In this document: piece by piece, positions 43,267-62,631 of the stretch
Numbering within the stretch: position 1 is the first letter of the stretch
Layout of the letters: each line of letters begins with the position of its first letter
NCBI RefSeq assembly: GCF_003003995.1
Contig: NZ_PVWF01000007.1
Span: 1 to 64,000 of the forward strand
From: Pleurocapsa sp. CCALA 161
Lineage (GTDB): Bacteria > Cyanobacteriota > Cyanobacteriia > Cyanobacteriales > Xenococcaceae
Length of the DNA stretch: 64,000 nucleotides
Direction of reading: 5' to 3'
Program-made: the position numbers and the translations under genes
The notes under the pieces: model-generated
What the model was told of the DNA's origin: nothing
What the model saw: the letters and a program-made list of their open reading frames with translations, nothing else
Databases searched by the model: none

Positions 43267-44091
43267 CTACTGCCATTCTTTTAAAGCAGGAGTTTCTCCA
43301 AGTGCTTTACTCAATTCGCCATGAATCAAGCCATTAGTTGCCAAGATCCGACCAGAAGCAATGTCTAGAGGACTACCATCATATGCAGTTACTTTACCTC
43401 CTGCTTCCCGTAAAATGACGATTCCTGCTGCCATATCCCAGGGTTGAATTCCTCGTTCCCAATAGCCGTCTAGTCTACCGCAGGCTACTCCTGCCAAATC
43501 CATCGAAGCGCATCCCAAGCGACGCACTCCTTGAGTTAAATGAGTGAGATGACAAAACTCTGCATAATTATTGTCTTTGGTTTCCCGTCGATCATAGGCA
43601 AATCCAGTAATCAAAAGGCTTTTACTTAATGCTTGAGTTGCCGAAACTTTAATCGGACGACGATTACAGGTTGCACCTAAGCCTGTTGCTGCTTGAAATA
43701 GCTCATCGCTAAAAGGATTATATACTGCACCCACTGCGGGGACTCCATTAATCATTAAGCCAACAGAGGTTGCTGCTAAAGGTAAGCCATGGGCGTAGTT
43801 TGTAGTACCGTCCAAAGGATCGATCGCCCAGAGATATTCACTATCAGTATTACCCAATGCTCCCGATTCTTCTGCCAAAATTTGATGTTCAGGAAGATGG
43901 CGTTTCAAGACTTTAAGAACTTCTGCCTCTGCTAGCTTGTCCGCCTCGGTGACCAAATCGCCAGGACGACCCTTTTCTTGAATATTATTGAATTTACCCC
44001 AGCGTTCTTTCAAGACTGCTCCGGCGGCCATAACTGATGCGGTAGCGACATCGAGAAAAATCTGTAGTTGTTCGGTGGCAGGTTGAGTCAT
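43267..44091 (-). CDS. Inositol monophosphatase family protein
   Basis: A 274-residue Mg-dependent, lithium-sensitive-type phosphatase. Metal motifs are LAEESGALG (Glu), WAIDPLDGTTNYAHG (D-P-x-D-G-T) and QPWDMAAGIVILREAGG (W-D-x-A-A-G). Members hydrolyse inositol-1-phosphate, fructose-1,6-bisphosphate, histidinol phosphate or PAP; the cyanobacterial IMPase-like group is close to SuhB, but I cannot fix the substrate. It is the last gene of the nadE operon, with ATG 44091 overlapping the thermonuclease stop (ATGA). Confidence 0.9.
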   Translation of the reverse strand: MTQPATEQLQIFLDVATASVMAAGAVLKERWGKFNNIQEKGRPGDLVTEADKLAEAEVLKVLKRHLPEHQILAEESGALGNTDSEYLWAIDPLDGTTNYAHGLPLAATSVGLMINGVPAVGAVYNPFSDELFQAATGLGATCNRRPIKVSATQALSKSLLITGFAYDRRETKDNNYAEFCHLTHLTQGVRRLGCASMDLAGVACGRLDGYWERGIQPWDMAAGIVILREAGGKVTAYDGSPLDIASGRILATNGLIHGELSKALGETPALKEWQ

Positions 44092-57892: not shown

Positions 57893-58508
57893 TACGCGAT
57901 ATGCTTGTTGATTTTGGTGGTGTAAGAAAAAGTTTCTAAGCTGCCATACTCATAGCCAGTATTTATGAGAATACGCATTTACTTTTGTAACAAAAACGCT
58001 GCCTGTCATGGTCAATAAATTTTGAATAGCTGACTCCTGTAGCTTTATCTTAGCTATAACAGCTTTTTTTCGGTCTATCTATAGCATGTTTTTGAAAAAA
58101 TAGTATTTGTGTTCTTACTCTCACTAAATTCTAAGATACACGATTTTAGTTAACTTATGTAAAGTTTATTTAAAATACTTGTTAGTGAATGAGAATTGAT
58201 AATTATTTAGTGCCACTTATTAAAAAATCATATCGATAAAACAAAGGCAAAAATGCAACACTGGCAACAAATTGGTCTAATTACCTGTTTAATCTGAGAC
58301 ATATCAACAGTTTAACTAACAATTATTCGGCTAAAGCTTTCAATTCCCATAAGAGCCAGCTAAAATGCCCCAATGTTGAGCGACAGTTTGATTTCACTAT
58401 TTTGTCAAGTTGCTTTACATAAAATACTACTATGGGAACTGTGATCGGAAAACTGTAAAAATAATTAAGCGTCAGACACAGGAATTTTCCTACAATAAAT
58501 TAGAATCT
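57893..58508. other. Divergent intergenic region between sigma factor and S9 peptidase
   Basis: This 616-bp AT-rich gap holds the promoters of both divergent genes. An in-frame extension of the peptidase back to 58410 is open but lacks a ribosome site and homology. A weak hairpin with a T7 run lies near 58035-58070. Nothing else is recognised. Confidence 0.45.
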
Positions 58509-60434
58509 ATGAATACTCCTCAAGTGGCTGCTTGTGGTTCTTGGCAATCGCCCATAACCTCAAATTTAATCGTTTCTCAGACTGTCGGCATTAGCAGTTT
58601 GGCTGTCAACCAAGGAAACATTTATTGGGTAGAAAAAAGACCCCAAGAACAAGGAAGAAATTTGCTGATCGGCTACGGCAATCAGACAGAGGTGAAAAAT
58701 TTTACCCCCGCACCCTTAAGCGTGCGTAGTAAAATTCACGAATATGGAGGTGGTGCATTCGTAGTTGAAGAAAATACAATTTATTTTTCTAACTATCAAG
58801 ATGGCAGAATTTATCAACAGGTAATTGGCACGCAACCCTATCCTTTGACAGATAAATTGGAGCGACGCTATGGGGATCTAATCGTTGATCGAGACAGAAA
58901 TCGTCTGATTTGTGTCTGTGAAGATCATTCTTTAGCTGGCGAAGCCAAAAATAGTATCGTTACCATTAATCTCAATACAGGGAGAATGCAAGATTTAGTT
59001 GCGGGTAGCGATTTTTATTCTTCTCCCCGTTTGAGTCCTGATGGGGAGTATCTAGCCTGGTTGAGTTGGAATCATCCTAATATGCCCTGGGATAGTACTC
59101 ATCTCTGGCTGGCGCAGCTTGACGCGGAGGGGATGGTTTTAGAGCCTAAATTAATTGCAGGAGGAACAGCCGAATCGATCTGTGAACCCAAGTGGGGTGA
59201 TGATGGGACTCTTTACTTCTCAAGCGATCGCACTAACTGGTGGAATTTATATCGGCGAAAACCAGATGGTCAGGTAGAGATTCTCCAGCAAAAATCTGCT
59301 GAGTTTGCCTATCCTCATTGGATATTTGGCTTATCTACTTATGCTGTGGTGGGAGAGTCTATCATCTGTGCTTATTCAGCCGATGGCTGCTGGCATTTAG
59401 GCAAAATTGACTTAAAAACCAAACAGTTTAGCGAAATTAAAACTAGATATACTAATATTTCCGATCTTCAAGGCAGCGATGATTTTGTCATTTTTATAGG
59501 TGGTTCTCCCACAGAAACAACGGCGGTAATTAAGCTGGATTTAAATACCTTGAGAGAACAAATACTACGGCGTACAGGAGAGGTTCAGATTGACCCTGGC
59601 TATTTATCGCTACCAGAGGCGATCGCTTTTCCCAGTAGCGAAGGTTTAACTGCTCATGCTTGGTATTATGCTCCAGAAAATAAAGATTACCTAGCTATGT
59701 CAGGAGAACTGCCTCCTTTAATAGTCAATAGTCATGGAGGGCCCACAGCCGCTGCTGCGGTGGAATTGAACCTGCGAATTCAGTACTGGACTAGTCGTGG
59801 TTTTGGCTATTTAGATGTGAATTATGGTGGCAGCATTGGTTATGGTCGTCAGTATCGTCAGCGACTAGACGGCAAGTGGGGAATTGTTGACGTAGATGAT
59901 TGTATTAACGCTGCTAAGTATTTGGTTGAGCGCAAAAGCGTAGATGGCGATCGCCTAGTGATTACAGGCAGCAGTGCAGGAGGCTATACTACTCTAGCTG
60001 CCTTAACCTTTCGCGATACTTTTAAAGCAGGGGCAAGTTACTATGGCGTGAGCGATCTAGAGATCTTAGCCAAAGATACTCATAAGTTTGAATCTCGCTA
60101 TTTAGATCGTTTAGTGGGCAAGTATCCTGAAGATCGAGCTATTTATCAAGAGCGATCGCCGATTTACTTTATCGAACAGTTAGACTGTCCTGTGATCTTC
60201 TTTCAGGGATTAAAAGACCAGGTAGTACCCCCAAATCAGGCGGAAATGATGTTTGAGGCGATCAAAAAAAAGGGTTTACCCGTGGCTTATATTGCTTTTG
60301 AACAGGAGGCTCATGGTTTTCGGATTGCTGAAAATATTCAAAAAGCTTTGGATAGCGAATTTTACTTTTATTCCCGTATCTTTGGTTTTGAACCAGCAGA
60401 TCGGCTCGAACAGATCGAAATAATTAATTTATAG
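58509..60434 (+). CDS. S9 family serine peptidase (acylaminoacyl-peptidase/DPP-like)
   Basis: A 641-residue prolyl-oligopeptidase-family enzyme. The N-terminal part (about 30-380) is a beta-propeller with repeated SPRLSPDGEYLAWLSW and PKWGDDGTLYFSSDRT blades; the C-terminal alpha/beta-hydrolase has the nucleophile elbow GSSAGGYTTL, acid LKDQVVPPNQAE and His EQEAHGFR. It likely trims short peptides in the cytosol; no signal is seen. ATG at 58509 (NTPQVAACGSW) fits the family start; the upstream frame from 58410 is discarded. The two eukaryote-type genes follow in the same direction. Confidence 0.92.
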   Translation: MNTPQVAACGSWQSPITSNLIVSQTVGISSLAVNQGNIYWVEKRPQEQGRNLLIGYGNQTEVKNFTPAPLSVRSKIHEYGGGAFVVEENTIYFSNYQDGRIYQQVIGTQPYPLTDKLERRYGDLIVDRDRNRLICVCEDHSLAGEAKNSIVTINLNTGRMQDLVAGSDFYSSPRLSPDGEYLAWLSWNHPNMPWDSTHLWLAQLDAEGMVLEPKLIAGGTAESICEPKWGDDGTLYFSSDRTNWWNLYRRKPDGQVEILQQKSAEFAYPHWIFGLSTYAVVGESIICAYSADGCWHLGKIDLKTKQFSEIKTRYTNISDLQGSDDFVIFIGGSPTETTAVIKLDLNTLREQILRRTGEVQIDPGYLSLPEAIAFPSSEGLTAHAWYYAPENKDYLAMSGELPPLIVNSHGGPTAAAAVELNLRIQYWTSRGFGYLDVNYGGSIGYGRQYRQRLDGKWGIVDVDDCINAAKYLVERKSVDGDRLVITGSSAGGYTTLAALTFRDTFKAGASYYGVSDLEILAKDTHKFESRYLDRLVGKYPEDRAIYQERSPIYFIEQLDCPVIFFQGLKDQVVPPNQAEMMFEAIKKKGLPVAYIAFEQEAHGFRIAENIQKALDSEFYFYSRIFGFEPADRLEQIEIINL

Positions 60435-60524: not shown

Positions 60525-61193
60525 ATGGCGATTAACCAAGTATTCTTTTATATCCCCAATCTAATTGGCTATGTCAGATTTATTTTTTATCTAGCCAGCT
60601 TTATTAGTCATAGTTTAGGTTACTGGCAACTGTGTATTGGACTATATGCGATCGCCTTTATTTTAGATGAATTTGATGGCCGAGCTGCTCGTGCCTATAA
60701 TCAAAGTAGTAATTTTGGTGCTGCCTTAGATATGGTGGCGGATCGTTCGGCAACAGCGGGTTTATGTCTGATTTTGGCACAGCTATATCCTCATTATTTA
60801 TTAGCATTTATTGGCGCGATCGCCCTTGATATTAGCAGTCATTATTATTTAATTTACGCTACAGGAATGCGGGGATCAGCCAGTCATAAAGATTCGGCTC
60901 AATGGTCGAATAATGCATTACTGAAGCTTTATTATGGCAAAAAACCTTTTATGGATTTGCTGATTCTGGGTAATGAACTATTTTATCTCCTACTATATCT
61001 TGATTTTTATCTAGTAGGAATAAGTATAAATTTAGCTGGCTGGCAGACAAATATTTGGCAATTATTGCTAATAGTTTTCTTGCCAATTTATTTATTGAAA
61101 CAGGCGACTAATATTCTTCAGCTACAGGCAGCAGGACAAGAAATAGCCAAACTAGATTTAATTAGTCGTGAAGCTAAATCGGCAACTGAATAA
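60525..61193 (+). CDS. CDP-alcohol phosphatidyltransferase resembling eukaryotic phosphatidylinositol synthase
   Basis: A 222-residue membrane enzyme. The catalytic motif D-x2-D-G-x2-A-R-x8-G-x3-D-x3-D is exact: Asp48, Asp51, Gly52, Ala55-Arg56, Gly65, Asp69, Asp73. Beyond this generic motif the sequence follows animal/plant phosphatidylinositol synthase as I recall it: FYIPNLIGYVRFIFYLASF at the start, GRAARAYNQSSNFGAALDM, GMRGSASHKD and LLILGNELFYLLLYLDFY near the end, and the size is the same (human CDIPT 213). Bacterial PG and PS synthases do not have these segments. The likely reaction is CDP-diacylglycerol plus myo-inositol to phosphatidylinositol; an inositol-like alternative head group is possible. 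HIP1 sites (two in the gene) show long residence in this genome. ATG at 60525; 90 bp after the peptidase. Confidence 0.88.
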   Translation: MAINQVFFYIPNLIGYVRFIFYLASFISHSLGYWQLCIGLYAIAFILDEFDGRAARAYNQSSNFGAALDMVADRSATAGLCLILAQLYPHYLLAFIGAIALDISSHYYLIYATGMRGSASHKDSAQWSNNALLKLYYGKKPFMDLLILGNELFYLLLYLDFYLVGISINLAGWQTNIWQLLLIVFLPIYLLKQATNILQLQAAGQEIAKLDLISREAKSATE

Positions 61194-61275: not shown

Positions 61276-62631
61276 ATGAAACAGTACCCTGAAGCAGACA
61301 TTTCCAGCGCAGTGGATCTTGCCCTGGCTTGTGCCTTACTACAACGCACTCAGACGGGAGACTTAACCCATTGTCCCTTAATGCTTTCACCAGCTATTAT
61401 CACCAACCTGTTGATTACCCAACTAGAGTCTTTAGCTCAACCTTTAGCTCTTTTAATTCATCGAGTAGCCAACGATTTAGATTTTCTGGTAGAACAGCTT
61501 CAATTTACTGCTGCTAGTGACGAGTATACGGGCTTTTTGTTATCTCTAGCTCAAGAACAACGTCGTCAAGATAGTTTGCGGTTTTCTCTTACCCGCAGTG
61601 ATTACTTCATGACGCAAACAGACGGCTTACGCCAAGTAGAATTTAATACTATTGCCGCCAGCTATATCGGTTTATCGGAAAAAATCACCGAATTCCATAA
61701 AATATGGGGTAATCTTCAGAAAGAAACCTGGGACTTGTTACCTAATCAGCCAATCGCTGCCGTTGCTGATGCCTTTGTGACGGTGATGAAGGAGTATAAT
61801 GTTTTAAATGCTTGTGTGCTGTTTGTGGTTCAAGCTAACGAGCGTAATGTTTTCGATCAGCGTCTTTTAGAAATCGCCCTGATTGAACGGGGTATCAAAG
61901 TTGTACGCGCTAGCCTCGAAGCAATTGGCGAACAGGGAGAAGTACGTCAGGGTCATCTCTTACTTAACGGTGAAATTGCTGCTATTACTTATTTTCGAGC
62001 GGGTTACCGTCCTGATGAACTCGAAAGCAAAATAGCTCGTCAAGGTCGTCAGTTAATTGCTCGTTCAACGACAGTTTCTGTGCCAGATTTACCAACTCAT
62101 TTAGCAGGAACTAAGAAAATTCAGCAAGTATTAACGAATCCTCAACTGTTAAAGCTCTTTCTTGACGAAGAGGATATTGCTATAGTTAGAACTGCCTTTG
62201 CCCAGATTTATACTCTTGATGTGCAGATTAAATTTGAAGGCAAAATGATGCTAGCCAAAGAAGCAGCTATTTTACAACCAGAGCAATTTGTGCTTAAACC
62301 CCAGCGGGAGGGTGGCGGTTTTAATCTATATGGTGAAGATTTGCGTCAATGTCTACAAAATCTACCAGCAGAAGCAGGTAACGCATACATTTTAATGGAA
62401 CGACTATATCCACCTGTGTCTCCTGGCTGGGGTCTAAGGGATGGAAAACTCTGGCAAGGACAGGTAGTACACGAAATTGGTCAATATGGTATCTTAATTG
62501 CTCATGGCGATCGCATTTTAACCAATCAAGCAGCAGGTTATCTCGTGCGTACTAAGCTTGGCGAGATGAACGAGGGGGGTATATCGGCGGGATATGGACA
62601 TCTCAACAGTTTGGTTAAAAGTAATACCTAG
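61276..62631 (+). CDS. gshB: Eukaryotic-type glutathione synthetase
   Basis: A 451-residue ATP-grasp ligase that joins gamma-glutamylcysteine and glycine. It follows the eukaryotic GSS family, not the ~320-residue bacterial GshB: TRSDYFMTQTDGLRQVEFNT with IAASYIGLS, ANERNVFDQRLLE, AAITYFRAGYRPDE, HLAGTKKIQQVLTNPQLL, FVLKPQREGGGFNLYGEDL (ATP/Mg loop), AYILMERLYPP and the end VRTKLGEMNEGGISAGYGHL. Human GSS (474 residues) has matching text at each of these places as I remember it; one Gly-loop Asn is Phe here. I use gshB only as a functional label; the protein belongs to the GSS lineage. ATG at 61276, in line with the PI-synthase-like gene. Confidence 0.92.
   Translation: MKQYPEADISSAVDLALACALLQRTQTGDLTHCPLMLSPAIITNLLITQLESLAQPLALLIHRVANDLDFLVEQLQFTAASDEYTGFLLSLAQEQRRQDSLRFSLTRSDYFMTQTDGLRQVEFNTIAASYIGLSEKITEFHKIWGNLQKETWDLLPNQPIAAVADAFVTVMKEYNVLNACVLFVVQANERNVFDQRLLEIALIERGIKVVRASLEAIGEQGEVRQGHLLLNGEIAAITYFRAGYRPDELESKIARQGRQLIARSTTVSVPDLPTHLAGTKKIQQVLTNPQLLKLFLDEEDIAIVRTAFAQIYTLDVQIKFEGKMMLAKEAAILQPEQFVLKPQREGGGFNLYGEDLRQCLQNLPAEAGNAYILMERLYPPVSPGWGLRDGKLWQGQVVHEIGQYGILIAHGDRILTNQAAGYLVRTKLGEMNEGGISAGYGHLNSLVKSNT

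Follow-up and report, generated by a model that had tools for sequence, protein, structure and literature searches.

Phosphatidylinositol (PI) is a hallmark lipid of eukaryotes, in which PI synthase (PIS) works in one step with myo-inositol as the acceptor. The bacteria known as PI producers use a different enzyme, PIPS, and proceed via PIP. The textbook membrane lipids of cyanobacteria are MGDG, DGDG, SQDG and PG. For the CDP-alcohol phosphotransferase family it is established that the binding sites for CDP-diacylglycerol and acceptor lie at the cytosolic face of a bundle of six helices; aspartates hold the metal, and attack on the beta-phosphate comes from the acceptor hydroxyl (PMC4634129). 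PIPS takes inositol phosphate as its acceptor, and the two arginines that serve its phosphate are reported not to be conserved in eukaryotic PI synthases (PMC4634129). The inositol lipid cluster of Bacteroides (BT_1522-1526) combines a bacterial MIPS with an inositol-lipid synthase, and its route goes via PIP-DAG and a PIP phosphatase (PMC9246714).

We analyzed the first 64,000 nucleotides of a contig from Pleurocapsa sp. CCALA 161, referred to here as the window. An ORF of 222 codons in this window had been predicted to encode a PIS of the eukaryotic type. The features discussed below are as follows.

43303..44058, minus strand: inositol monophosphatase family gene (PF00459, 259.6 bits)
58410..60434, plus strand: S9 prolyl-oligopeptidase-family gene, directly upstream of the PIS gene, a neighbor kept in about half of the genus and with no evident role in lipid metabolism
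60525..61193, plus strand: eukaryote-type phosphatidylinositol synthase (PIS), ATG start, 222 aa, predicted integral membrane CDP-alcohol phosphatidyltransferase
60666..60743, plus strand: CDP-alcohol phosphotransferase active-site motif D48-x2-D51-G52-x2-A55-R56-x8-G65-x3-D69-x3-D73, invariant in 31 of 31 alignment rows
60825..60890, plus strand: PIS-only signature L101-D102-x2-S105-H106 ... S120-H121-K122, without variation across the PIS rows (14 cyanobacterial, 3 eukaryotic)
61276..62631, plus strand: eukaryotic-type glutathione synthetase (TIGR01986, 351 bits, above the cut-off), outside the PI pathway

Relation to eukaryotic PI synthases

The ORF matches PF01066 (CDP-OH_P_transf) with 58.5 bits against a Pfam cut-off of 22, and its catalytic motif DxxDGxxARx8GxxxDxxxD is complete (D48, D51, G52, A55, R56, G65, D69 and D73). 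The domain and the DxxDGxxAR motif are common to all relatives and would equally suit an ordinary PgsA/PssA-type phospholipid synthase that resembles PIS only at that motif. We consider such an enzyme extremely improbable, because the similarity to PIS covers the full length of the ORF, the genome has its own PgsA (contig C89, 135.9 bits to PF01066, separate from the PIS gene), and a union with PgsA-like enzymes fails the approximately unbiased (AU) test described below and is largely rejected by the tree. That PgsA aligns with the ORF over 97 residues only. The NCBIfam equivalogs PgsA, PssA, PIPS, AIPS and ClsA all score at most 33 bits against the ORF, each far under its cut-off; TIGR00560 (PgsA) reaches 30.2 of 109.1 bits, and PssA entered the comparison through its profile score only. 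The PIPS/AIPS equivalogs NF045883 and NF040950 reach 23.6 of 170 and 32.8 of 180 bits respectively, with the qualification that clear cyanobacterial PIPS-like proteins also score under these cut-offs (119-156 bits). No eukaryotic PIS model was found among the NCBIfam matches of the ORF. Besides PgsA and the PIS ORF, the genome has one further PF01066 gene (three in all), a CDP-alcohol phosphatidyltransferase of unassigned specificity on contig C2 (G000:C2:18639-19058, minus strand, 37.7 bits; locus L003).

Aligned end to end with reference sequences written out without a database record, the ORF is 39% identical to human, 39% to yeast and 36% to Arabidopsis PIS. In a joint alignment with the same references, it shares 35-38% identity with the eukaryotic enzymes over 211-213 columns, and the three eukaryotes share 32-39% among themselves; identity to PgsA, PIPS and other CDP-alcohol enzymes is 18-24%. 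All peptides quoted in the original prediction (IPNLIGYVRFIFY, GRAARAYNQ, RGSASHK and GNELFYLLLYL) are found in the ORF, and its claim of a match reaching over the whole length, beyond the catalytic motif, is borne out by the full-length identity. The 31-row alignment (A3), which takes in other CDP-alcohol families besides PIS, adds residue-level evidence. D102, H106, H121 and K122 of the PIS-only signature are missing at the matching columns in all 11 PgsA, PIPS and other rows. Y136, E151 and K192 are likewise invariant in the 14 cyanobacterial and 3 eukaryotic PIS sequences, and most of the invariant PIS residues (D102, H106, S120-H121-K122, Y136, E151 and K192) are lacking in the columns of other families.

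The tree unites cyanobacterial and eukaryotic PIS with support of 99/97 and places PIPS in a separate clade (100/99). A position inside the bacterial PG/PS synthases, named beforehand as a result that would count against a PIS, was not obtained. Constraining the 13 sequences of the window family to group with PIPS was rejected by the AU test (p 0.003), as was constraining them with PgsA-like enzymes (p 0.011). The case for a eukaryote-type PIS is stronger than first claimed, and the ORF resembles the eukaryotic enzyme (CDIPT / PIS1, EC 2.7.8.11) in full-length homology, a size of about 220 aa, the PIS-only residues and its clade in the tree. Its setting differs from that of the eukaryotic enzyme, with a bacterial host, a bacterial INO1 as partner and a genome without a PF00454 match.

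Confidence in the AlphaFold models of the protein was low to moderate (pLDDT 60 for the first and 75 for the second), and the acceptor pocket is not resolvable in them. Foldseek returned no match at E <0.001 for these models, and no eukaryotic PIS was found among solved structures. Several CDP-alcohol phosphotransferases stood near the top in VIA-align, with a maximum Z of 10.5 across the N-terminal half, a value under the level meaningful for helical bundles and accordingly given little weight.

The gene is under purifying selection, with dN/dS of 0.09-0.17 in 11 pairs with relatives and a saturated twelfth pair. Two HIP1 octamers (GCGATCGC) do lie within it, at 60648 and 60816, and had been taken as a sign of age. 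With 94 copies in the window (1.47 per kb), two in a 0.67 kb gene is about the local background, so that they tell little about age.

Inositol supply and the predicted pathway

The strongest evidence, and one absent from the original prediction, is co-occurrence with inositol-3-phosphate synthase (INO1). The window genome encodes an INO1 that was detected by PF01658 and missed by a PF07994 search. Its nearest solved structure is M. tuberculosis Ino1 (1GR0, 403 bits), and it scores 460 bits against the mycothiol_INO1 model (cut-off 638). Within the family, PF01658 is present in exactly the 13 of 27 genomes that have PIS and is missing from the other 14 (Fisher 5e-8, a value that, like the hypergeometric ones, treats related genomes as independent and is hence inflated). 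Two separate adjacencies weigh more than these statistics: in G388, a family member of another genus, INO1 immediately precedes PIS in the same orientation (head-to-tail), and in G473, from a different family, the two genes are tail-to-tail. In the window genome they are unlinked. In the INO1 tree, the PIS-bearing family members and G388 form one clade within cyanobacterial INO1. A side observation is that INO1 and a fatty acyl-AMP ligase gene are divergent neighbors both in the window genome (L055 10400-13362) and in G388 (L060 4806-8264), possibly a link to lipid modification.

Across the order, INO1 was found in 44 of 391 genomes (43 above the cut-off), including 14 of 14 with PIS and 18 of 18 with a bacterial-type PIPS (PIPS >119 bits). 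No genome of the order was found to have both PIS and PIPS, in a PIPS sample of 371 genomes that possibly does not include G473, and no PIPS match occurred in window-family members among the genomes listed. From these gene contents, it seems that one inositol supply serves either PIS or PIPS. The PIPS genes of bacterial type near INO1 in other cyanobacterial families (L116 and L117; the same 18 genomes) would constitute a second inositol-lipid route in the order.

The ORF is thus most likely a working PI synthase of the eukaryotic family, in a hybrid pathway with bacterial INO1 and an inositol monophosphatase. In the first step, the M. tuberculosis-type INO1 encoded elsewhere in the genome would convert glucose 6-phosphate to inositol 3-phosphate. 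In the second, one of four inositol monophosphatase-family enzymes (PF00459) would release myo-inositol; the gene at 43303..44058, the best match of the four, is a candidate for this step. In the third, membrane-bound PIS would transfer phosphatidate, with CDP-diacylglycerol and free myo-inositol giving phosphatidylinositol and CMP, presumably at the metal-dependent active site typical of CDP-alcohol phosphotransferases. In type, the INO1 partner matches the mycobacterial enzyme, and it would here feed a eukaryote-type PIS, not PIPS. The combination of a bacterial inositol phosphate synthase with an inositol-lipid synthase is shared with the Bacteroides cluster, which differs in its PIP-DAG intermediate. 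We infer the substrate (inositol, not inositol phosphate), the product, expression and the cellular role of PI. The earlier suggestion of possible PI production in this organism gains support from an INO1 gene that co-occurs with PIS and in some genomes adjoins it. No PI3/PI4-kinase domain (PF00454) was found in the window genome, so eukaryote-like phosphoinositide signaling is not indicated.

A PIS-fold enzyme could instead take inositol 3-phosphate directly, acting as a PIP synthase with a phosphatase following. The characterized bacterial CDP-DAG routes to PI do use inositol phosphate (PMC4634129, PMC9246714), INO1 co-occurs with the ORF, and PIPS adjoins INO1 in other cyanobacteria. The PIPS enzymes themselves (PgsA1 of Mycobacterium; RsPIPS) share with the ORF the CDP-alcohol phosphotransferase fold and motif and the pairing with INO1, but are only about 18-20% identical and form their own clade. 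R195 of the Mtb PIPS, a proposed ligand of the acceptor's phosphate group (PMC4634129), aligns with Gln193 of the ORF; around Mtb R155 the alignment is unreliable. The glutamine, together with the contrast between the families, would favor direct use of myo-inositol. Given also that the ORF falls with the eukaryotic PIS enzymes, whose acceptor is free inositol, that union with PIPS is rejected, and that inositol monophosphatase genes are on hand, we regard the use of inositol 3-phosphate as unlikely. Recruitment to another polyol or sugar alcohol, yielding a different phospholipid, is conceivable insofar as the acceptor pocket is beyond the reach of the models and the residues determining acceptor choice are only partly known. 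This is very unlikely in view of the strict co-occurrence and adjacency with INO1, which point to inositol, and of the retention in the ORF of residues invariant among eukaryotic PIS.

Distribution and origin

In a phylum-wide sample of 386 genomes, a full-length match to PIS was found only in the window genome and one congener. Within the family, PIS is present in 12 of 13 genomes of the window genus and in G388. Close relatives by name, from a single-sequence query that reaches close relatives only, are all Pleurocapsales: Waterburya agarophytonicola KI4, Pleurocapsa and Myxosarcina MAGs, and LEGE 10410. Among the 391 genomes of the order, one PIS was found beyond the family, in G473 (98 bits, adjoining INO1). 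This copy (L110 9461-10100, minus strand) has a frame shift inside a poly-T run, which points to an error in the assembly or to a gene that is damaged. In addition to its intact gene, a truncated second copy of PIS, about 85 aa long, in G408 (C1:5226018-5226269; L059) is 69% identical, contains a stop and is a decaying duplicate.

Contamination as the source of PIS was ruled out by its location on contigs of 4.5, 5.4 and 6.4 Mb in three genomes. Plasmid, phage and viral-contig collections held no close relative, so carriage on mobile elements is unsupported; a giant-virus source likewise had no support, though it was weakly tested. Joint transfer with the neighboring glutathione synthetase was also ruled out: the two genes are adjacent in one subclade only, by recent rearrangement, and elsewhere the synthetase occurs without PIS beside it. 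The TIGR01986 synthetase itself was found in only 6 of 391 order genomes, is 70-78% identical to those distant-genome copies with which it was compared, and seems to have been passed between cyanobacteria.

Transfer of PIS from a eukaryote is the default reading, and the G473 gene may represent a second transfer. The direction from eukaryote to cyanobacterium is not supported in the way it had been argued, since the tree does not fix the direction. It contains long branches, and the branching order within its eukaryotic and cyanobacterial PIS part is not fixed either. A eukaryotic PIS clade with no cyanobacterial copy inside it was not rejected (AU p 0.25), and cyanobacterial PIS is as distant from each eukaryote as the eukaryotes are from one another. 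These two results leave standing a second reading, quite unlikely in our assessment, in which the family predates eukaryotes or originated outside them and the cyanobacterial lineage descends from the bacterial PIS that gave eukaryotes theirs. It would take in both the Pleurocapsales and the separate G473 branch, each linked to INO1.

Implications for cyanobacterial membranes

We found no description of a PIS enzyme in cyanobacteria in the open-access literature, no PI measurement for any PIS-bearing strain, and no mention of inositol or lipids in the accessible part of the Waterburya genome paper. Prokaryotic PIS is not entirely without precedent, as a 2015 PIS phylogeny included exactly two prokaryotic sequences (PMC4424895). 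Cyanobacterial PI is not unheard of either, as lipidomics in 2025 reported it in Laspinema LEGE 06078 (9 species) and Sphaerospermopsis (1) (PMC12196109). The bacterial-type PIPS route in the order may explain the PI in Laspinema.

Judged from their genomes, PIS-bearing cyanobacteria very probably combine bacterial and eukaryote-type enzymes in a hybrid route to an inositol lipid. In these free-living, seaweed- and rock-dwelling organisms, a eukaryotic enzyme would be coupled to a bacterial inositol synthase. The coupling of the same inositol synthase to PIS or to PIPS within one order offers a natural comparison of the two routes, and the cyanobacterial sequences are new material for the question of how eukaryotic PI synthesis arose. 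The membranes of Pleurocapsales are predicted to contain PI, contrary to the list of MGDG, DGDG, SQDG and PG.
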